Assembly: GCA_021372785.1 (NCBI GenBank) | Contig: JAJFTT010000017.1 | Coordinates: 1-32,017 of the forward strand | DNA from: Negativicutes bacterium | GTDB lineage: Bacteria; Bacillota; JAAYKD01 | Length of the DNA: 32,017 nucleotides | Direction: 5' to 3' | Shown here: positions 12,133 to 25,838 of the stretch, piece by piece | Position numbering within the stretch: the first letter of the stretch is position 1 | How the letters are laid out: each line of letters begins with the position of its first letter | Translations under genes and position numbers: made by a program | The notes under the pieces: model-generated | What the model saw: only the letters and a program-made list of their open reading frames with translations | The model's database searches: none | Told to the model about the DNA's origin: nothing

Positions 12133-13695
12133 ATGCGCTTATTGATGATGACTATTTTATTTCCGGCCAGTATCAGCCAGAATTTGGGAGAAGCGATTGC
12201 GTTAGCCCGCCAGGAAAAGAGTTATGCAGAACTACAGACTTCGGACGGTCAGCGTCATTCGGTCACTTACTCGGCCTTGGATTCAGTGGAATCTTATCGG
12301 GCTCTCTGGGCTTTGGTGCGCAATTGGAAAGGCAGTCAGCATTTAATCGATGGTGTTGAGGTGCCATATGAGAGTGTACAAGAGACGATCGTCTGTTATA
12401 TCGAAGGGGTGCGGCTGAGCCAAAAAAACTGGTGCTGGGGTGATGCAGCCCAGAGTGCCGGTTACACTCCGCTTTTTCCCTGCCGCTTTATTCCGATTTC
12501 CGAAGCGAATCATCTGGGCTGGTTCCAGTACGGCAGTCTCAACCGGGAGAAGATTTTCATTGTCGATAAAATCAAGCTGCGTCAGCGAATTGATTATTAT
12601 TTAGAAAAGAGCAACGCTCGCTTCTGCCCCTTGCTGGATGGATCCCGGATTGATGATATTGTCCGACAGTTACCCAGCCGGATTGACCCACAGCAAGACG
12701 ATCAATGGATTTATAAACAAGGTTGGGTGAAAGGCCGCTTTCAAATTATCGGTGTGGAAAAACGTCAGACGAGCAGCCGACCGCTGCAGCAGCCGGCTGC
12801 GGCTGCAGCGGCACACGCGCCGACTAAGAGTGAAAATCACAGCAATCAATCAGAGTCGGATCTTGTCATGGCAGAGAGAGATATCCCTCTGATCCATTAT
12901 CATCAAATCGGGGGACTCGATTCGGTCATCGCGCAGGTACGGGAAAATGTGGAGCTGCCTTTAAAAATGCCGCAGTTGTTTCAGCATCTGGGAATTACAC
13001 CGCACCGGGGGATTCTGCTTTTCGGTCCCCCCGGAACAGGTAAAACCCTGCTTGCCAAGGCGCTTGCCAATGAATGCAATGCACATTTTATTTTTGTCAA
13101 CGGTCCGGAATTGATTTCCAAGTGGCATGGCGAAACGGAAGCGAATTTACGCAGGATTTTCGAGGAGGCAAAAGCAAAGGCGCCATCGGTCATCTTGTTT
13201 GATGAGGTGGATGCCCTCACACCCGATCGGGATCAGGTTACCCTGCATTATGAGGCGGTAGCCGTATCCCAATTATTGTCTTTAATGGATGGGTTGGTAG
13301 ACCGCGGCAATGTGATTGTTGTCGGCACAACCAACCGACCGCAGAGTGTGGATGCCGCTTTGAAACGTCCGGGCCGATTGGACCTGCAGTTGGAGGTGGG
13401 CTTTCCCGATAAGGCGGGGCGGGAAGATATTTTGCGCATTCATACCGCCGGTATGCCGCTGCGATCGGATGTCGATCTGGTGCGCTTAGCCGAACTGACA
13501 CCGGAATTCAGCGGAGCGGAGCTGGCTTCTCTTTGCCGTGACGCCGGGTTATTATGTATTCGAGAAAGAATCACAATCGGCAGTCAGGATTTGCTTCCCG
13601 ATTTAAGTGATGAGGAAATCGCATTGATGACTGTCGGGCAGGAACATTTCCTGCGGGCATTGAATAATAGAAATGGAGTATCGCAGAATTATTAA
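12133..13695 (+). CDS. Cdc48-type AAA+ ATPase with unrecognised N-terminal domain
   Basis: This is a 520-residue protein. Residues 1-210 form a domain I do not recognise (tryptophan- and cysteine-containing, with NWCWGDAA and LFPCRFIP). An Ala/Gln/Ser-rich linker follows at about 215-250, then one AAA+ module of the Cdc48/FtsH type: Walker A GPPGTGKT (298-305), Walker B ILFDEVDAL (354-362; D357, E358), sensor 1 TTNRP (399-403) and arginine fingers R412 and R415 in LKRPGRLD. The C-terminal lid ELTPEFSGAELASLCRDAG is typical. Only one ATPase ring is present, unlike two-ring Cdc48. AAAGGA precedes the ATG. It heads a likely operon with a DUF2156 protein and a GNAT enzyme. It is probably an unfoldase or remodelling motor whose target is set by the N-domain. 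Confidence 0.87.
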   Translation: MRLLMMTILFPASISQNLGEAIALARQEKSYAELQTSDGQRHSVTYSALDSVESYRALWALVRNWKGSQHLIDGVEVPYESVQETIVCYIEGVRLSQKNWCWGDAAQSAGYTPLFPCRFIPISEANHLGWFQYGSLNREKIFIVDKIKLRQRIDYYLEKSNARFCPLLDGSRIDDIVRQLPSRIDPQQDDQWIYKQGWVKGRFQIIGVEKRQTSSRPLQQPAAAAAAHAPTKSENHSNQSESDLVMAERDIPLIHYHQIGGLDSVIAQVRENVELPLKMPQLFQHLGITPHRGILLFGPPGTGKTLLAKALANECNAHFIFVNGPELISKWHGETEANLRRIFEEAKAKAPSVILFDEVDALTPDRDQVTLHYEAVAVSQLLSLMDGLVDRGNVIVVGTTNRPQSVDAALKRPGRLDLQLEVGFPDKAGREDILRIHTAGMPLRSDVDLVRLAELTPEFSGAELASLCRDAGLLCIRERITIGSQDLLPDLSDEEIALMTVGQEHFLRALNNRNGVSQNY

Positions 13696-13771: not shown

Positions 13772-14662
13772 ATGTTAACCTGGAAGCAGCCGCGTCCGGA
13801 AGACAAAGCTTTATTTGATTCCTTTCTCAGCAGGACGGTGCGCGATAGTTACGAAACCTCCTTTGCCACTCTTTATCTTTGGCGGAAATATACGCACTTG
13901 GAGTACGCCATCGATCAAGACTTATTGATCCTTTATCATCATAAGCAGGACTTTGGCAGCTATTATCACCCGCCTTATGGCTATCAGAAAGCAGATCTGC
14001 CGGAAATAACGCGTAAGCTGCAGGCTGAGCGTCCCACCGATTTTCTATATGGTGAAGTGGATGAGCATTTTGCCTTTGAACTCAAGGAAATGATGGGAGA
14101 TTCGATCGAGCTGATTGCCGATCGTGATGACTTTGAATATGTTTATTTGGTCGAAGATTTGATCAACTTGTCCGGACGCCGCTATCATGGTCAGAAAAAT
14201 CACTGCAATACCTTTGTCAAACGATATCAGCCAACCTCAACATCAATTTCAACACCGCAGGTTCATGCCGACTGTTATCATCTGCTGCAGCGCTGGAAAG
14301 AAGCCAAAGGCCTGGCGGATTCCGAGCTGATTGCCGAACGCTGCGCCATAGACGAGGCTATGGTGCTGCAGGAGCAGCTGCAGCTCAAGAGTATTGCTGT
14401 GTACGCCGAAGACCGGGTCGTAGGTTTTGCAATTGGCGAAAAACTGACGGAGGAAATGGCGGTCATCCATTTTGAAAAGGCGGATCCGACCTGCCGCGGC
14501 GCCTATGCCTATCTCAATCAGTATTTTTTAGCCACGAATTTTCAACAGCAGCGCTTTGTCAATCGCCAGGAAGATGTTGGCGATGCAGGTTTGCGAAAAG
14601 TAAAGACCGAATATCATCCGATCAAAATGGTGAAAAAATACTATATCCGGAAAGTAAATTAA
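13772..14662 (+). CDS. DUF2156 family protein (GNAT-like fold, LPG-synthase C-terminal type)
   Basis: This 296-residue protein matches the DUF2156 family, whose double GNAT-like fold is shared with the aminoacyl-transferring domain of lysyl-phosphatidylglycerol synthase. Characteristic segments are LSGRRYHGQKNHCNTFVKRY in the middle and NRQEDVGDAGLRKVKTEYHP near the C terminus. There are no membrane segments, so it is a stand-alone cytosolic member. It could transfer an acyl or aminoacyl group, but the substrate is unknown. A GGGGAG ribosome binding site lies 10 bases before the ATG. It follows the AAA+ gene by 76 bases and precedes a GNAT gene by 47, suggesting one operon. Confidence 0.82.
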   Translation: MLTWKQPRPEDKALFDSFLSRTVRDSYETSFATLYLWRKYTHLEYAIDQDLLILYHHKQDFGSYYHPPYGYQKADLPEITRKLQAERPTDFLYGEVDEHFAFELKEMMGDSIELIADRDDFEYVYLVEDLINLSGRRYHGQKNHCNTFVKRYQPTSTSISTPQVHADCYHLLQRWKEAKGLADSELIAERCAIDEAMVLQEQLQLKSIAVYAEDRVVGFAIGEKLTEEMAVIHFEKADPTCRGAYAYLNQYFLATNFQQQRFVNRQEDVGDAGLRKVKTEYHPIKMVKKYYIRKVN

Positions 14663-17279: not shown

Positions 17280-17308
17280 TTGTAATTGTTCTCACTATTA
17301 GCTATAAT
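17280..17308 (+). promoter_or_regulatory. Sigma-A-type promoter of the agr-like locus
   Basis: TTGTAA (17280-17285) and TATAAT (17303-17308) are separated by exactly 17 bases. The start of DUF5317 lies 37 bases past the -10, leaving a short leader. It is the best promoter in the block and probably drives the genes 17345-19182. Confidence 0.75.
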
Positions 17309-17344: not shown

Positions 17345-17911
17345 ATGATTATCGAATTGATTGCGGCGATGAGCCTGGCAAAATTCAGACACTACAATTT
17401 GAAATATGCTTTTTACACTTGGACATTTTATCCTGTACTGCTGACGCAGGGCATCTTGATTTTTTTCCAGATGAGCATTTTTTTCGGAACTTATTACTTT
17501 CTGCAATTCGTACCAATCGTAGAACCGATCATCATTTTATCGTTCCTTTTTGCCATTTTTGCCTTTCGGCTATACACACCGGCCATCGTCGGATCGGTTT
17601 GTATTGGGATCGGTTCCATGCTGAATAAGTTTGTTATGGCGCAGAATGGCGGCTTGATGCCGGTTTATCCGAGCTTGTCTTATCTGACCGGTTATGCGAC
17701 AGCCCAGTCCTTTCAGATCGCGGACGGTGTGCACATTCTGGGCAGTGATGTGACCCGCTATAAACTGCTGACCGATTATATTGACTTTGGTTATTGTATT
17801 CTGAGCCCCGGGGATGTCTTTATCCATCTGTTTACTTTTCTTATGCTTTATGCAATTTTTAAAGCCGCTCATCAGCATTATTCCAGTAGGCAGACAAAAC
17901 GGTATCAATGA
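17345..17911 (+). CDS. DUF5317-family membrane protein
   Basis: This 188-residue polytopic membrane protein has hydrophobic segments near 25-45, 52-72, 78-95 and 155-172. The segment LNKFVMAQNGGLMPVYP and the following outward-facing loop (TDYIDFGYCILSPGDVF) match the DUF5317 family, whose function is unknown. The ATG is 12 bases after GGGAG, a slightly long spacing. It opens a run of overlapping genes leading to AgrB and AgrD, starting 37 bases after a good promoter. In this place it may serve the peptide-signal system, but that is only inferred from position. Confidence 0.75.
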   Translation: MIIELIAAMSLAKFRHYNLKYAFYTWTFYPVLLTQGILIFFQMSIFFGTYYFLQFVPIVEPIIILSFLFAIFAFRLYTPAIVGSVCIGIGSMLNKFVMAQNGGLMPVYPSLSYLTGYATAQSFQIADGVHILGSDVTRYKLLTDYIDFGYCILSPGDVFIHLFTFLMLYAIFKAAHQHYSSRQTKRYQ

Positions 17912-18447
17912 GAGGATGGAACAATTTGGACGGAATTGCGATTAGTGTGACTCAGCTTATAATAAAAGGGATACCAGAAGGTTTTCTCATGATGCTTGCT
18001 TTACATATATTAACCGGTACGAAAATTGATGCGAAGAAATATTTCCTTCTCAGCTCAGTTTATGTCATCCTGACCTACCTGATTAGATTTTTACCAATCA
18101 CACTTGGTGTGAACACAATGATATCACTGTTAACAATGATTTTACTTTTTCAATTAACATATAAAACCCAGTTGGGTAAGGTCGTTAAATCGGTTGTTTC
18201 TGCAGTTTTGATTATGACCTTTGTCATGATTTCAGAAATACTAAATATGCTGATTCTCTATACTATTTATGGTCAGAGCAAGGCGGAAGAGTTACTTAAT
18301 TTCGGGTCGGAATTAACACAAAGTTTAGTAACCATTCCATCCTCGATTTTTCTTGCTCTTTTTATAGTCCTTTCCCACGTTATTTTAACGAGGTTGGAAA
18401 AAAGGAAAAACGAACATGGAGAAGCTAACAAGAAAACTGGCGGCTAA
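17908..18447 (+). CDS. AT-rich polytopic membrane protein, possibly a kinase-less receptor-like protein
   Basis: This 179-residue protein has five or six predicted membrane segments (about 9-30, 42-62, 66-83, 90-115 and 138-162), then a short charged tail (LEKRKNEHGEANKK). The hydrophobic pattern resembles the N-terminal sensor half of AgrC-type GHKL histidine kinases, but no kinase domain follows; that likeness is an impression, not a proven homology. The listed ATG overlaps the previous stop (ATGA) and lacks a ribosome binding site. A TTG at 17926 preceded by AGAGGA is an alternative. G+C is about 35% by hand count, well below its neighbours, hinting at separate origin. Its 3' end overlaps agrB by 32 bases. 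Confidence 0.65.
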   Translation: MRGWNNLDGIAISVTQLIIKGIPEGFLMMLALHILTGTKIDAKKYFLLSSVYVILTYLIRFLPITLGVNTMISLLTMILLFQLTYKTQLGKVVKSVVSAVLIMTFVMISEILNMLILYTIYGQSKAEELLNFGSELTQSLVTIPSSIFLALFIVLSHVILTRLEKRKNEHGEANKKTGG

Positions 18448-19063
18448 TGTCGCCCGGTCGCTCGATTACGATGCCGAACGCGAAGCGGTAATCGCTTATG
18501 GTTTGATCGGGCTCGTACAGATTATCATCACCTTTGCTTTGGTTTTGCTTTTTGGAAGTTTGGTCGGTGCGCCGGCGGAAGCCCTCATCGTCTGCGCAGC
18601 GGTTGGTTTATTGCGAAAATACAGCGGCGGCGCTCACGCAGGTTCGGCGGAATTATGCAATGCAATCAGTGTTGTCTACAGCACATCCGCAGCAGTCGCG
18701 GCCAAAAGATATTTTTCCACGGCGGACAATCTCGCTCTGCAGCTTTTGCTCACCGCCGTCATCTTTGGCGTTTCGTACCTTATTGTCTACCGGTTTGCGC
18801 CGGTAGACTCACCCAATAAGCCGATTAAAACAGTCAAAAAGAAAAAGAGAATGAGGCAGGGCAGCTTTATCATCCTGACTGTTTACTTTTTGTTAGCGAT
18901 TGCACTGTTTCTTGCCGGCTGTGATGATGGGGTTTACGCCTCATATGGGATAAGCCTTCTGTTCGGAGTTATTTGGCAGATCTTTACTCTTACCTCCCCG
19001 GGAGCCTTCCTGCTTCACAGCCTGGATCTACGATTGCAAAAAAAGGAGGTGAACAAGTTATGA
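18416..19063 (+). CDS. agrB: AgrB-type autoinducer prepeptide-processing membrane protease
   Basis: The 215-residue product is an accessory gene regulator B. The catalytic pair H74 and C81 lies in LLRKYSGGAHAGSAELCN, with the same seven-residue spacing as the S. aureus pair H77/C84. The signature APVDSPNKPI and the C-terminal SPGAFLLHSLD fit too. AgrB cleaves the C-terminal part of AgrD, forms the thiolactone and helps export it. Membrane segments alternate with a basic cytosolic loop (TVKKKKRMRQ). AAAGGA precedes the ATG. The gene overlaps its upstream neighbour by 32 bases and its TGA overlaps the agrD start, showing translational coupling. Confidence 0.93.
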   Translation: MEKLTRKLAANVARSLDYDAEREAVIAYGLIGLVQIIITFALVLLFGSLVGAPAEALIVCAAVGLLRKYSGGAHAGSAELCNAISVVYSTSAAVAAKRYFSTADNLALQLLLTAVIFGVSYLIVYRFAPVDSPNKPIKTVKKKKRMRQGSFIILTVYFLLAIALFLAGCDDGVYASYGISLLFGVIWQIFTLTSPGAFLLHSLDLRLQKKEVNKL

Positions 19064-19182
19064 AGAAGTTCTATGGGATCATTGCTGCTGTTTCTACAAT
19101 CATGGCAGCCGCTCTCGCTACTTCTGCCTGCTGGTGGTTCTCTTATCAGCCGGAGGAGCCAGAATCTTTGAGAGAAGAGTAG
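19060..19182 (+). CDS. agrD: AgrD-like cyclic lactone autoinducer peptide precursor
   Basis: This 40-residue precursor has a short basic N terminus (MKKFYG), an amphipathic/hydrophobic leader (IIAAVSTIMAAALATSA), a core C24-W-W-F-S28 and an acidic tail (YQPEEPESLREE). The layout is that of clostridial AgrD peptides, where AgrB cuts after the core and joins its C terminus to the cysteine thiol. The expected mature signal is therefore a five-residue thiolactone ring, CWWFS; exact ends are inferred. A very strong AAAGGAGGTGA lies eight bases ahead of the ATG, which overlaps the agrB stop (ATGA). A longer open frame covers the region, but this start is decided by that site. Confidence 0.93.
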   Translation: MKKFYGIIAAVSTIMAAALATSACWWFSYQPEEPESLREE

Positions 19183-19192
19183 AAAAACCCAT

Positions 19193-19220
19193 ATAGGAGG
19201 CTTTTTCAGAAGCCTCCTAT
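19193..19220 (+). terminator. Hairpin terminator after agrD
   Basis: ATAGGAGGCTT (19193-19203) pairs with AAGCCTCCTAT (19210-19220), an 11-bp perfect stem with a 6-base loop, followed by CTCTTTT. The U-tract is short, so readthrough into the GGDEF/HD-GYP gene, which starts 49 bases later, is possible. Confidence 0.7.
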
Positions 19221-19268
19221 CTCTTTTGGTGCGGTCATTTTTCGCGGTCATTTTAAGGAGGCGTTGAC

Positions 19269-20930
19269 ATGTCTGAACTTGATAAAGAAAAGCAAACACA
19301 AATCAATCAAATTTTACAGCTTGTTAAAATCGCCTCTTTATGTTTTCCTTCCATCGCTTTTTTCCAATATTATGCCAAAATTAATGCGTCTGCCGTTTTT
19401 TTCACCTATAGTTTTTTGCTGGTTGCCATCTTATTGACGATGCTGGGCATATATATGTTATTGTATTATATTCAGACTAAAATGAGCGATGACTATAGGA
19501 TCAAACCCTGGATCAGTCCGCTGATTTCACTCACCATCGCATTTTTATCAGTAATCCTGACAGGCAGTTATGAGAGCAGTTATAAATTTCTGTTTGTGCT
19601 CGTGATTATATCCACCAGCATTGAGTGCGATATGAAAACAAGCCTCACCATTTCCGGCTTGTCGGCATTGATTGTGCTTGTCACCGATTTGGTTTGCGCT
19701 CCCGCAAATGGGGTCAACTCTTATTTTGAGAGTGATTTGGTCCTGGCAAGCGTGTTTCTGATCATTTCCTGGACCATCAGCTTTTATGTCGATTTAGGCA
19801 AAAAACATATTGAGAGCTTAGCGAATTTAGCCAATACAGACGGTTTAACCGGCTTGAATAATCATCGTTTTTTCTATGACGCCCTGGCAGAACAGGTAAA
19901 AAAGAGTAAAGCCGATGGAAGTGCGCTCTCCCTGCTGTTTCTTGATATTGATGATTTTAAATATTACAATGATCTTTATGGTCACCAAAAGGGGGATCAG
20001 GTGATCAAGACACTGGCGGTACTGATGAACCAGACACTGCCGCAAAAAAGTATCATCGCACGCTATGGCGGTGAGGAATTTACGATTTTGTTGCCCGGAA
20101 GCGGAGAAGAGCAGGCGCTGCAGGAAGCGGAAGCGCTGCGCCGAGCTGTGCATGAATATGAATTTGAAGGAGAAGAAAATTTACCCGGGGGTACCATGAC
20201 CATATCAATCGGGGTTTCTTCCCTGAACGCTAAAATTACGTCCGAAGCAGATCTTTTAAAATGCGCCGATGATGCTTGTTACCGGGCGAAATTTCTGCTT
20301 AAAAACCGGGTGGAGTCCTATTACTCTATCCTGGAAGAACTGCAGAATGAAGTGGCTGAATCCGATAAAGCGATGGTCGCTTCGATCAAGACACTGATCG
20401 CCGTGATCAATGCCAAGGATAAATACACCTACCAGCACGTCGAAAAAGTGGTTTATTACTGTAGTCTGCTGGCGGATCAGCAAGGGATGAGCGATATAGA
20501 CAGGAAGCAATTTATTTATGCTGCCTATTTGCATGATATCGGGAAAATAAATATTCCGGAAGAAATTCTGATGAAGGTTGAGAAGCTCACACCGGAGGAA
20601 TGGAATATCTTGCAAAATCATCCGCGGAATGCGGCAGAGATCATCAAAAACATAGAGCCTCTGCAGGCCGTGATACCGATTATTCTGCAGCATCACGAAA
20701 AATTTGACGGGACAGGCTATCCCAACAATTTAAAGGGAGAAGAAATTCATCCTTTGGCCAGGCTGCTGACCGTGATTGACAGCTTCGATGCCATGACTTC
20801 CGTCAGACCATATCAACTGAAAAAAACGCATGCTCAGGCAATTGAGGAACTGCAACGGTGCAGCGGAACACAATTCGATCCGGATGCCGTTCGGCTTTTC
20901 GTTCAGGTTGTCAAGAGTGTCATTCTATAA
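19269..20930 (+). CDS. Membrane sensor with GGDEF and HD-GYP domains (cyclic-di-GMP turnover)
   Basis: The 553-residue protein begins with about six membrane segments (residues 15-175) of no recognised sensor family. A GGDEF diguanylate cyclase domain follows (TDGLTGLNNHRFF at 190-202, active site GGEEF 267-271). No RxxD inhibitory site precedes GGEEF. A short helix links to an HD-GYP phosphodiesterase domain (H390, HD at 422-423 in HDIGK, HHEKFDGTGYP at 475-485). Both catalytic motifs look intact, so it may make or destroy cyclic-di-GMP depending on signal. AAGGAGG precedes the ATG. It follows agrD directly on the same strand and ends at a strong terminator. Confidence 0.92.
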   Translation: MSELDKEKQTQINQILQLVKIASLCFPSIAFFQYYAKINASAVFFTYSFLLVAILLTMLGIYMLLYYIQTKMSDDYRIKPWISPLISLTIAFLSVILTGSYESSYKFLFVLVIISTSIECDMKTSLTISGLSALIVLVTDLVCAPANGVNSYFESDLVLASVFLIISWTISFYVDLGKKHIESLANLANTDGLTGLNNHRFFYDALAEQVKKSKADGSALSLLFLDIDDFKYYNDLYGHQKGDQVIKTLAVLMNQTLPQKSIIARYGGEEFTILLPGSGEEQALQEAEALRRAVHEYEFEGEENLPGGTMTISIGVSSLNAKITSEADLLKCADDACYRAKFLLKNRVESYYSILEELQNEVAESDKAMVASIKTLIAVINAKDKYTYQHVEKVVYYCSLLADQQGMSDIDRKQFIYAAYLHDIGKINIPEEILMKVEKLTPEEWNILQNHPRNAAEIIKNIEPLQAVIPIILQHHEKFDGTGYPNNLKGEEIHPLARLLTVIDSFDAMTSVRPYQLKKTHAQAIEELQRCSGTQFDPDAVRLFVQVVKSVIL

Positions 20931-20943
20931 GAAAGCAAAAAGT

Positions 20944-20988
20944 ACTTCCGAAGAGCGGGTGAAAGTCCGGTTCGGAAGTTTTTTTTTT
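20944..20988 (+). terminator. Strong intrinsic terminator after the GGDEF/HD-GYP gene
   Basis: ACTTCCGAA (20944-20952) pairs with TTCGGAAGT (20971-20979) and is followed by an uninterrupted T-tract to 20988. The hairpin closes the agr/cyclic-di-GMP block. Confidence 0.9.
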
Positions 20989-23701: not shown

Positions 23702-24397
23702 ATGCCGAGCGTTTTAATTGCGGATGATAACCAACAAATTGCTTCCATTTTAGAAGAATATGCTAAAAAGGAAGGACTGACTACGAAAATTGCATCAAAC
23801 GGTTTGGAAGCTGTAGAATTGTTTGCAAAATTCAAACCGGATTTGCTTCTGCTTGATGTGATGATGCCAAAGATGGATGGATTTGAAGTCTGCCGTGAAA
23901 TTCGCAAGACTTCCAATGTACCCATCATCATGATTACAGCCAGAGGAGAAGATTTTGAACGCATCATGGGTCTGGATATCGGCGCCGATGATTATATCGT
24001 GAAACCGTTTTCCCCGGCGGAAGTGATGGCACGGGTGCGGGCTGTTTTACGGCGCATCAGCCATGCGGAAGGACAAAAATGTCAGGTGTTTTCCTTCGAT
24101 AATCTCAATATCAATCTGGATGACTATTTGGTGCAGGTGGATCAGCAAGCGGTATCCTTAACCAAAAAGGAAATCGAAATTCTCTGGACGCTGGCGACGA
24201 GCAAAGGGAAAGTCTTCTCGCGCGATCATCTGCTCAACAGTGTGTGGGGATATGATTATTTCGGCGACAGCCGTACGGTTGACTCTCATATCAAGCGGCT
24301 GCGTGCGAAATTGGATCGTTTTGAGCATCCGCATTGGGAAATCAGTACCATTTGGGGTGTTGGATACAAGTTTGAGGAAGTAAAAAATGAAGCATAA
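23702..24397 (+). CDS. OmpR/PhoB-family response regulator
   Basis: The 231-residue protein has a receiver domain with acidic pair D8/D9, phospho-acceptor D52 in LLLLDVMMPKMDG, T79 in MITA and K101 in IVKPFSP. A winged-helix DNA-binding domain follows (about 130-228: LTKKEIEILWTLA, SRDHLLNSVWGYDYFGDSRTVDSHIKRLRAKL, WGVGYKF). A GGGGGGACAGG ribosome binding site precedes the ATG. The gene overlaps the sensor-kinase gene by 11 bases and is divergent from the DUF2680-like secreted protein, its possible target. Confidence 0.95.
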   Translation: MPSVLIADDNQQIASILEEYAKKEGLTTKIASNGLEAVELFAKFKPDLLLLDVMMPKMDGFEVCREIRKTSNVPIIMITARGEDFERIMGLDIGADDYIVKPFSPAEVMARVRAVLRRISHAEGQKCQVFSFDNLNINLDDYLVQVDQQAVSLTKKEIEILWTLATSKGKVFSRDHLLNSVWGYDYFGDSRTVDSHIKRLRAKLDRFEHPHWEISTIWGVGYKFEEVKNEA

Positions 24398-25838
24398 AAT
24401 CGCCCGGAAACTTACCTTTTATTTTTCCGTTGTGCTGCTTTTATTTGCGCTGATCATCGGCAGTGTTTTTACCGTCTTGTTCCGCAGTTATACCATTAAC
24501 CTGCAAAAAGATGAATTGGCAGCGCGCGCGGTGACTATGGCGTCAGCTCTGGCGAAGGGCATCAGCAATCAAACTGCCGGATCCGGTTTGGGCAGCCGGC
24601 AAGGCGGCTATGGTTTTTATCTGCGGTTTTTGAATGAGATTGCCATGACGGATGCCTGGGTCGTCGATGAAGACTTGCAGCTGATCACCGGTAATCAACT
24701 GACCGGAACCACCTATCTTTATGCCGATTTGCCGCCAAATGCGGCAGCGGTAGTGAAGGAAGTTTTTTTGGGAAATACTACCTTTAGCGAAGGGTTCAGT
24801 TCACTGCTCAATACGCCAACACTGACAGTCGGAACGCCGATTCGGTCAAACGGGGAAATTATCGGCGCGCTTTTGCTGCATTCACCGGTAGAAGGAACCA
24901 ATGAAGCAATCAAGCAGGGATATCAGATCATGGCAGTCAGTGTGATTGCAGCGCTCGTTTTGTCCGGATTTTTGTCGGTTATTTTGGCAGTCACTTTCAG
25001 CAAGCCTCTGCAAAAAATGAAACAAGTTGCGATGCAATTGGCTGCCGGAGATTACAGCGTAAAAACCGAAATTCGGCAACAAGATGAAATCGGTGACTTG
25101 GCTGCCTCCATTGATATCCTGAGTCAGCGCCTGGAAGACGCCAGTCACGAAAGCGAACATTTGGATCAATTACGCCGTGATTTTATCGCCAATATTTCCC
25201 ACGAGCTGCGCACGCCGATTACCGTGATTCGCGGTTCTTTGGAAGCATTGTGTGACGAAGTGATTACGCAGCCGGAGCAGGTAAAGGCTTACTACTTGCA
25301 AATGCGGAAGGAAAGTCTCTTTTTGCAGCGACTGGTCAATGATTTACTGGATTTGTCTCGTTTACAAAACACGGATTTTCAAATCGATTTGCAGGAAGTT
25401 AGTTTGTGTGAAGTATTGGAAGATGCGGTTCGCAGCGCCAGGCAAATGGCGCAGGCAAAACAAATTCAGATCGAGCTGGAAATCAAATCCGAATTGTGTG
25501 TCATCCAGGGTGATTATGGACGTCTGCGGCAGATGTTCCTCATCATTCTGGATAACGCCGTCAAATTTTCACCCGTGCAGGGCAGTGTGAAGGTATTACT
25601 GCAGGATTCTGTCGTCTCCATCCGGGATCAGGGAATTGGCATTGCCGAAGAGGAGCTGCCTTATATTTTTGAACGATTTTATCAAGTTCCGTCCGAAGAA
25701 AATAAAAGCGGCACAGGTCTTGGTCTGGCAATCGCCAAGCAAATTGCGGAGCGACATGCGATCAGCTTGTTGGTTGAGAGCAAAATCGCCGTCGGCACTG
25801 AATTTCGATTTATCCTGAAGCCGCAGCAGGTTGCCTGA
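24387..25838 (+). CDS. Sensor histidine kinase
   Basis: The 483-residue membrane kinase has a first membrane helix at 9-33, an extracytoplasmic domain (about 34-178), a second helix (about 180-203) and a HAMP domain. The HisKA motif FIANISHELRTPITVIRG has phospho-accepting H272. The HATPase domain shows DNAVKFS, RDQGIGIAEEEL, ERFYQV and GTGLGLAIAKQIAE. It is the partner of the OmpR-type regulator, whose gene it overlaps by 11 bases. The ligand is unknown. A Crp/Fnr gene follows 80 bases later from its own promoter. Confidence 0.95.
   Translation: MKHKIARKLTFYFSVVLLLFALIIGSVFTVLFRSYTINLQKDELAARAVTMASALAKGISNQTAGSGLGSRQGGYGFYLRFLNEIAMTDAWVVDEDLQLITGNQLTGTTYLYADLPPNAAAVVKEVFLGNTTFSEGFSSLLNTPTLTVGTPIRSNGEIIGALLLHSPVEGTNEAIKQGYQIMAVSVIAALVLSGFLSVILAVTFSKPLQKMKQVAMQLAAGDYSVKTEIRQQDEIGDLAASIDILSQRLEDASHESEHLDQLRRDFIANISHELRTPITVIRGSLEALCDEVITQPEQVKAYYLQMRKESLFLQRLVNDLLDLSRLQNTDFQIDLQEVSLCEVLEDAVRSARQMAQAKQIQIELEIKSELCVIQGDYGRLRQMFLIILDNAVKFSPVQGSVKVLLQDSVVSIRDQGIGIAEEELPYIFERFYQVPSEENKSGTGLGLAIAKQIAERHAISLLVESKIAVGTEFRFILKPQQVA

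Follow-up and report, generated by a model that had tools for sequence, protein, structure and literature searches.

A recurrent agr locus without agrC and agrA sets AgrB and AgrD beside a putative detached receptor domain and a membrane GGDEF/HD-GYP enzyme

Many Bacillota carry agrBD genes without agrC and agrA, and such a locus raises the question of how its cyclic peptide is read. We addressed this question for positions 17345-20930 of a 32,017-nt stretch of contig JAJFTT010000017.1 from a Negativicutes bacterium (the window), where five genes on the same strand (+) follow one another in the order DUF5317, P2, AgrB, AgrD and a membrane GGDEF/HD-GYP protein, an enzyme for the synthesis and breakdown of the biofilm messenger cyclic-di-GMP (c-di-GMP); "P2" and "sensorN", the latter for the membrane input domain of this enzyme, are labels coined in this analysis. 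The locus is genuine, it is conserved and its parts fit together, with P2 and the c-di-GMP enzyme in the place of AgrC and AgrA. We consider it fairly probable that it constitutes a kinase-less agr variant, in which P2 and sensorN jointly detect the cyclic peptide and thereby set the c-di-GMP level.

An earlier note on this DNA had remarked that agrC and agrA are not adjacent, and this absence extends to the whole genome. The genome is a metagenome-assembled genome (MAG) of 2.10 Mb and 97.5% completeness, in which profile searches for AgrB, P2, LytTR and HATPase_c_5 returned one AgrB and a single copy of the P2 domain. No AgrC-type GHKL kinase was found, either adjacent to the locus or above background anywhere in this genome, and no AgrA (receiver plus LytTR) was found in it. 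The presence of agrC and agrA elsewhere was therefore rejected: the sole LytTR protein is a stand-alone one without receiver, followed by a DUF3021-like gene, there is no second P2, and the weak HATPase_c_5 matches were non-AgrC-type kinases, namely a KdpD-type kinase, a GlnK-like kinase beside a response regulator and a HisKA-type kinase (names taken from sequence reading, not from a database match). These searches bear on a reading in which an unlinked kinase reads the peptide, like VirS in Clostridium perfringens, and the enzyme gene is carried along or co-regulated. Such a reading has a published precedent (PMC7492741), a terminator-like hairpin precedes the enzyme gene, and many histidine kinases of the genome were assessed only in bulk; however, no AgrC/VirS-type GHKL kinase rose above background, the genome has no other P2 domain, the enzyme is linked to AgrB across 27 family groups and sensorN hardly occurs outside agr loci, and we hold an unlinked kinase to be distinctly improbable.

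The recurrence of the enzyme beside AgrB is the second line of evidence. A sample of 399 genomes from across the phylum included 163 with AgrB; 118 AgrB neighbourhoods were read, their genes being classed with profiles built for this analysis; a GGDEF/HD-GYP gene was scored as linked when it lay downstream of AgrB, on the same strand and within 700 bases. The order agrB-(agrD)-GGDEF/HD-GYP was found at 32 of the 118 loci, a proportion that is not a census since the loci read were mostly the better-scoring ones. GHKL kinases account for 48 of the other loci, fused P2-GHKL kinases for 14 and sensorN-kinases for 7, which leaves 17 loci with none of these genes. Once the loci later fetched through sensorN are included, the c-di-GMP type extends to 27 family-level groups. 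Chance adjacency of the enzyme to AgrB was rejected, as 32 linked loci out of 118 stand against about 7 HD-GYP genes in the whole genome; at 2% per locus the probability of this count would be near 1e-26, a figure that treats as independent loci which are only partly so. The nearest relative (G001, JAAYKD010000144.1, a MAG labelled 'Bacillota bacterium') has the same five genes. Of the gene order that had been proposed for conservation, the link to the enzyme held across the 27 family groups, but DUF5317 was present at only 3 of the 118 loci (the window, L035 and L095), all inside one four-member AgrB clade, and it is peripheral to the system.

The AgrB phylogeny tracks output type. On a tree of 134 rows, obtained with a quick method and weak in its deep branches, the c-di-GMP type took 17 changes against 36.7 with shuffled labels, and 0 of 500 shuffles was as low. 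A supported clade of 43 classical-kinase rows held zero c-di-GMP loci, and the window AgrB grouped with those of L035, L095 and L085, all of the c-di-GMP type (SH-aLRT 98).

What stands in the place of the receptor is indicated by P2 (17908-18447, +), a five-helix membrane protein of 179 aa. No Pfam family matches the window copies of P2 or sensorN, and P2 was recognized through a kinase-free profile, built solely from the P2 proteins of c-di-GMP-type loci, in a one-step search of 1,875 open frames. This profile matched the first ~150 residues of 15 fused GHKL kinases (E 2e-13 to 3e-26), 72 stand-alone P2 proteins at kinase loci and, weakly, one further kinase (1e-4); among the 1,875 frames it matched no other protein class and no shuffled decoy. 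Kinase loci often encode P2 and the kinase in two adjacent genes, which together with the fused proteins implies that the AgrC of this phylum exists in fused and split forms. P2 had earlier been called a receptor-like membrane protein, a description that agrees with its homology to the N-terminal domain of the fused AgrC-like kinases. On the strength of this homology we take P2 to be the detached receptor domain of the AgrC-like kinases of the phylum, which the c-di-GMP type keeps without the kinase half. The AlphaFold2 model of P2 has five long helices (pLDDT 88.8); Foldseek returned nothing for it in the PDB at E <= 0.001, and the P2 profile gave merely weak rhodopsin and nitric-oxide-reductase matches among PDB sequences. 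Two or three tandem P2 genes per AgrB locus were also observed (L049, L095, L102, L127, L158 and L161).

P2 flanks AgrB at loci of all output types, including those with separate kinases that have membrane helices of their own. This distribution would also fit a P2 that acts as a helper of AgrB and AgrD, as a maturation or export partner, with sensorN alone binding the peptide in a one-component agr-to-c-di-GMP circuit; that sensorN is physically joined to the output, and common to agr-linked kinases, speaks for the same reading. Nevertheless, the 15 proteins in which P2 and a GHKL kinase form one chain speak for reception and not for maturation, and P2 is kept beside sensorN proteins at three loci devoid of AgrB (L211, L221 and L228). 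A helper role for P2 thus appears unlikely to us, if not negligibly so, and we favor its participation in sensing, together with sensorN.

SensorN (19269-19817, +) is a membrane input domain of ~6 helices at the start of the 553-aa GGDEF/HD-GYP protein (19269-20930, +; PF00990 1.1e-41, PF13487 (HD_5) 1.2e-41), and corresponds to residues 1-183 of the AlphaFold2 model of the enzyme (pLDDT 86.8). A profile drawn from 32 AgrB-linked GGDEF proteins also picked up histidine kinases encoded near agr genes, with E values as low as 2e-42. In the 399 genomes it gave 58 matches at E <= 1e-30: 52 were adjacent to AgrB on the same strand, one was adjacent and convergent, three were without AgrB (one in G351, two in G092) and two lay at contig ends, so that 53 of the 56 scorable strong matches adjoin AgrB. 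This profile was trained on AgrB-linked proteins; among the 20 scorable matches outside the training set, 16 were adjacent to AgrB on the same strand and one was convergent. Its adjacency to AgrB and its sharing between kinases and enzymes mark sensorN as an agr-associated input module with an exchangeable output.

Some sensorN loci departed from the common arrangements. SensorN proteins with no AgrB nearby were seen at L221 and L222 (G092), L211 (G351) and L228 (G109), with P2 adjoining at L211, L221 and L228, and at L211 the GGDEF/HD-GYP frame is broken; these loci may possibly be orphan receptors (eavesdroppers) or decaying loci. At L047, L143, L225 and L235, P2 (and AgrB in three of the four) lies beside large proteins that join sensorN to kinase and receiver-like regions, an arrangement that is a further agr output type.

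The window sensorN did not match DUF4118, the KdpD-type membrane domain, and 14 of 31 members were weakly similar to it (best 6.9e-8). This likeness would fit a reading in which the enzyme senses an unrelated envelope cue and the AgrB/AgrD product has another role, either as an antagonist of the agr systems of neighbours or as a non-signalling peptide; AgrD-like peptides are indeed able to inhibit foreign agr systems. A homologue of the receptor domain retained within the operon and an AgrB phylogeny that follows output type speak against such an uncoupling, and we regard it as highly improbable.

If the peptide acts through P2 and sensorN, the motifs of the enzyme give an indication of the activity that it would control. 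The HD-GYP domain (20391-20885, +) has its HDxGK, HHE and GYP motifs intact, as have all 31 aligned proteins by domain match and motif table. In 18 of the 31 proteins, among them that of the window (GGEEF), the signature of the GGDEF domain (19830-20294, +) is intact; the other 13, the nearest relative (GGDGF) among them, have a degenerate one. These proportions imply that the conserved activity of the enzyme is probably that of a phosphodiesterase. The GGDEF domain of the window is without the RxxD inhibitory site (PQKS there) and contains the stretch GHQKGD, with G242 and D243 of the GHxxGD motif invariant among the 31 aligned proteins. As the Asp of this motif, which we take to be the residue that tells apart cGAMP-type 'Hypr' GGDEF domains, is kept in 31 of 31, an assignment to that type was rejected. 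At L144 (G104), the gene after AgrB and P2 encodes a protein of 307 aa that matches HD-GYP but not GGDEF, an arrangement that fits a phosphodiesterase as the essential output.

The signal itself would be made by AgrB (18416-19063, +; PF04647 1e-38), a membrane peptidase and putative AgrD processor with R67, H74 and C81 among its invariant alignment columns. The AgrD precursor MKKFYGIIAAVSTIMAAALATSACWWFSYQPEEPESLREE (19060-19182, +) matches TIGR04223 at 9e-14, above the curated cut-off, and has the N-terminal helix and the ring Cys/Ser of an AgrD. Its C-terminal end is TSACWWFSYQPEEPESLREE, and the QPEEPESL stretch in it is common to relatives, in which orthologous AgrDs lie after agrB. From the AgrD alignment, the mature ring is predicted to be C-W-W-F-S (19129-19143, +), closed as a putative thiolactone. 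The likely natural peptide of C. perfringens, where agrC and agrA are absent and VirS is the receptor, is also a 5-residue thiolactone (PMC7492741). A Ser replaces the Cys at the predicted ring position in several AgrDs (L053, L046, L089 and L108); judged by eye, this is commoner at kinase-type than at c-di-GMP-type loci.

Whether agrD and the enzyme gene are expressed together bears on their coupling. The ATG of the GGDEF/HD-GYP gene lies 87 bases past agrD on the same strand, the distance given in the earlier note, and is preceded by the ribosome-binding site AAGGAGGC (19255-19262, +). Between the two genes, a 12-bp hairpin followed by CTCTTTT (19193-19220, +; fold z -4.2), overlooked in the earlier note, is a possible attenuator or intrinsic terminator. 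Of 29 c-di-GMP-type loci, 24 have a hairpin at the equivalent position (each at p<=0.05 relative to dinucleotide shuffles), and a comparable one follows agrD in 29 of 50 other agr loci, which makes it a general feature 3' of agrD. Co-transcription is thus not a given and may be only partial. The earlier proposal of overlapping genes behind a single promoter fits the first four genes, with overlaps of 4, 32 and 4 bases from DUF5317 to AgrD and a promoter-like site TTGTAA-17-TATAAT at 17280-17308 (+; 10/12 matches in a consensus scan, by itself no proof of function), whereas one transcript that includes the enzyme gene was not established, given the conserved hairpin. The left arm of the hairpin, AGGAGGC, exactly repeats the Shine-Dalgarno sequence in front of the GGDEF gene (19256-19262), so that the right arm GCCTCCT could pair with either copy. 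A switch at the level of translation can be imagined on this basis; the predicted fold lends it no support. An Rfam scan of the window matched no RNA family, which implies that the hairpins at 19193 and 20944 are not a listed element.

Taking these data together, we infer the following course of events. AgrB, together with a signal peptidase, would cut AgrD to length and cyclise it into a thiolactone peptide with the ring CWWFS. This peptide would be bound at the membrane by P2 and/or sensorN, most plausibly by P2 acting with the 6-helix sensorN of the co-encoded enzyme, and its sensing would change c-di-GMP turnover, most probably through the HD-GYP phosphodiesterase, with the GGDEF domain as a second activity or as a regulatory domain. 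Several points weigh against this scheme. The hairpin and its short T-run split agrD from the enzyme gene, which is possibly expressed apart; in C. perfringens, whose agrBD operon also lacks agrC, it is an unlinked kinase, VirS, that reads the signal (PMC7492741); the MAG falls 2.5% short of completeness; and the resemblance of 14 of 31 sensorN members to DUF4118 means that sensorN might sense something else. In addition, with GGDEF and HD-GYP both intact in the window protein, its sequence is compatible with either sign of the effect. A wider claim, on which we are evenly divided, is that these loci represent a widespread third agr class, in which P2, the AgrC receptor domain, would be an exchangeable stand-alone subunit that plugs into sensorN as a common membrane input module, fused either to kinases or to GGDEF/HD-GYP, and at the enzyme-type loci the peptide would control c-di-GMP at the membrane without a phosphorelay or a transcription step.

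All five gene calls and coordinates of the earlier note were confirmed, four of the genes with family matches (PF17248, PF04647, TIGR04223, GGDEF and HD_5) and P2 without any, and its strong terminator past the enzyme gene was supported by a terminal hairpin with a long T-run (~20944-20988, +; fold z -4.6) that marks the operon end. DUF5317 (17345-17911, +; PF17248 1.9e-20) is an accessory, lineage-restricted membrane protein of 188 aa. Elsewhere in the window, a CDC48/FtsH-like AAA ATPase of 520 aa (12133-13695) is followed by a 296-aa protein without NCBIfam match (13772-14662), and a few kb downstream of the locus lie an OmpR-type response regulator (23702-24397) and a WalK/PhoR-like histidine kinase (24387-25838), which are not AgrA/AgrC-like. 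A tblastn search of plasmids with DUF5317 found none, and the AgrB search gave one odd record, an AgrB homologue of 30% identity at NZ_CP061968.1:14466-15056, in a 27-kb plasmid record labelled Klebsiella pneumoniae that is probably mislabelled or a contaminating contig.

A possible target of the agr-linked enzyme was found in the same genome. The only two c-di-GMP-I riboswitches found there lie in tandem (70.8 and 65.7 bits) ahead of a SipW-type operon on contig C11 (L252:2018-7194, corresponding to ~40017-45193 of this contig of G000), and no PilZ protein was found in the genome. Each riboswitch is directly 5' of its own terminator, the left arm of which overlaps the 3' strand of the aptamer, suggesting an ON switch. 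The first gene after them encodes a small secreted protein that weakly resembles the BsaA SipW-dependent matrix family; genes for a surface protein, for a signal peptidase of SipW-like type (TIGR02228 1.4e-20) and for another small secreted protein come next, and the operon ends in a second GGDEF/HD-GYP gene. We hypothesize that this secreted-fibre operon may be a downstream target. Should the agr-linked enzyme work mainly as a phosphodiesterase, abundant peptide would bring down c-di-GMP and with it the SipW-type operon; should it work mainly as a cyclase, the reverse would be expected.

In comparison with known systems, the locus shares with classical agr (agrBDCA) the AgrB, an AgrD with C-terminal QPExPxSL and a receptor domain that has homologues in the AgrC-like kinases of the phylum; classical agr has an AgrC GHKL kinase and an AgrA LytTR regulator, whereas the window has a stand-alone receptor domain and GGDEF/HD-GYP at the output. 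In the DSF system, RpfC/RpfG conveys a quorum signal to an HD-GYP phosphodiesterase, using a hybrid kinase and a receiver domain; the window locus has neither. RpfR, the BDSF receptor of Burkholderia, has a soluble PAS-GGDEF-EAL architecture. There too a quorum signal acts on a c-di-GMP enzyme without a kinase (PMC6361424, PMC3703271), but the signal is a fatty acid and the protein is soluble, in contrast to the predicted cyclic peptide, the membrane domains and the HD-GYP of the window. In C. difficile, agr alters the expression of c-di-GMP enzymes (PMC3754575); that link is transcriptional, through AgrA, while in the window the enzyme is encoded in the operon. Also similar in layout is the agr-like operon of C. 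perfringens, with agrBD lacking agrC/agrA, co-transcribed with two upstream genes for hypothetical proteins (PMC2706048), and with a likely 5-residue thiolactone; it differs in that the unlinked VirS/VirR read the signal, and no GGDEF/HD-GYP gene has been described in it. In the open-access papers covered we found no agr operon encoding or directly driving a GGDEF/HD-GYP protein; most subscription journals were outside this search, and a prior description is possible.

In summary, the recurrence of this arrangement in 27 families hints that cell-to-cell signalling may reach c-di-GMP by a direct route that has so far gone undescribed in the papers searched. The kinase-less locus offers a concrete and testable answer to the question of how the peptide is read at about a quarter of the sampled AgrB loci, and P2 and sensorN, two membrane proteins that were unannotated, gain a probable role. 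If the proposed scheme is true, it would be a Gram-positive peptide counterpart of the RpfR route from a quorum signal to c-di-GMP, and the two-protein receptor formed by P2 and sensorN could be rebuilt in a laboratory host.

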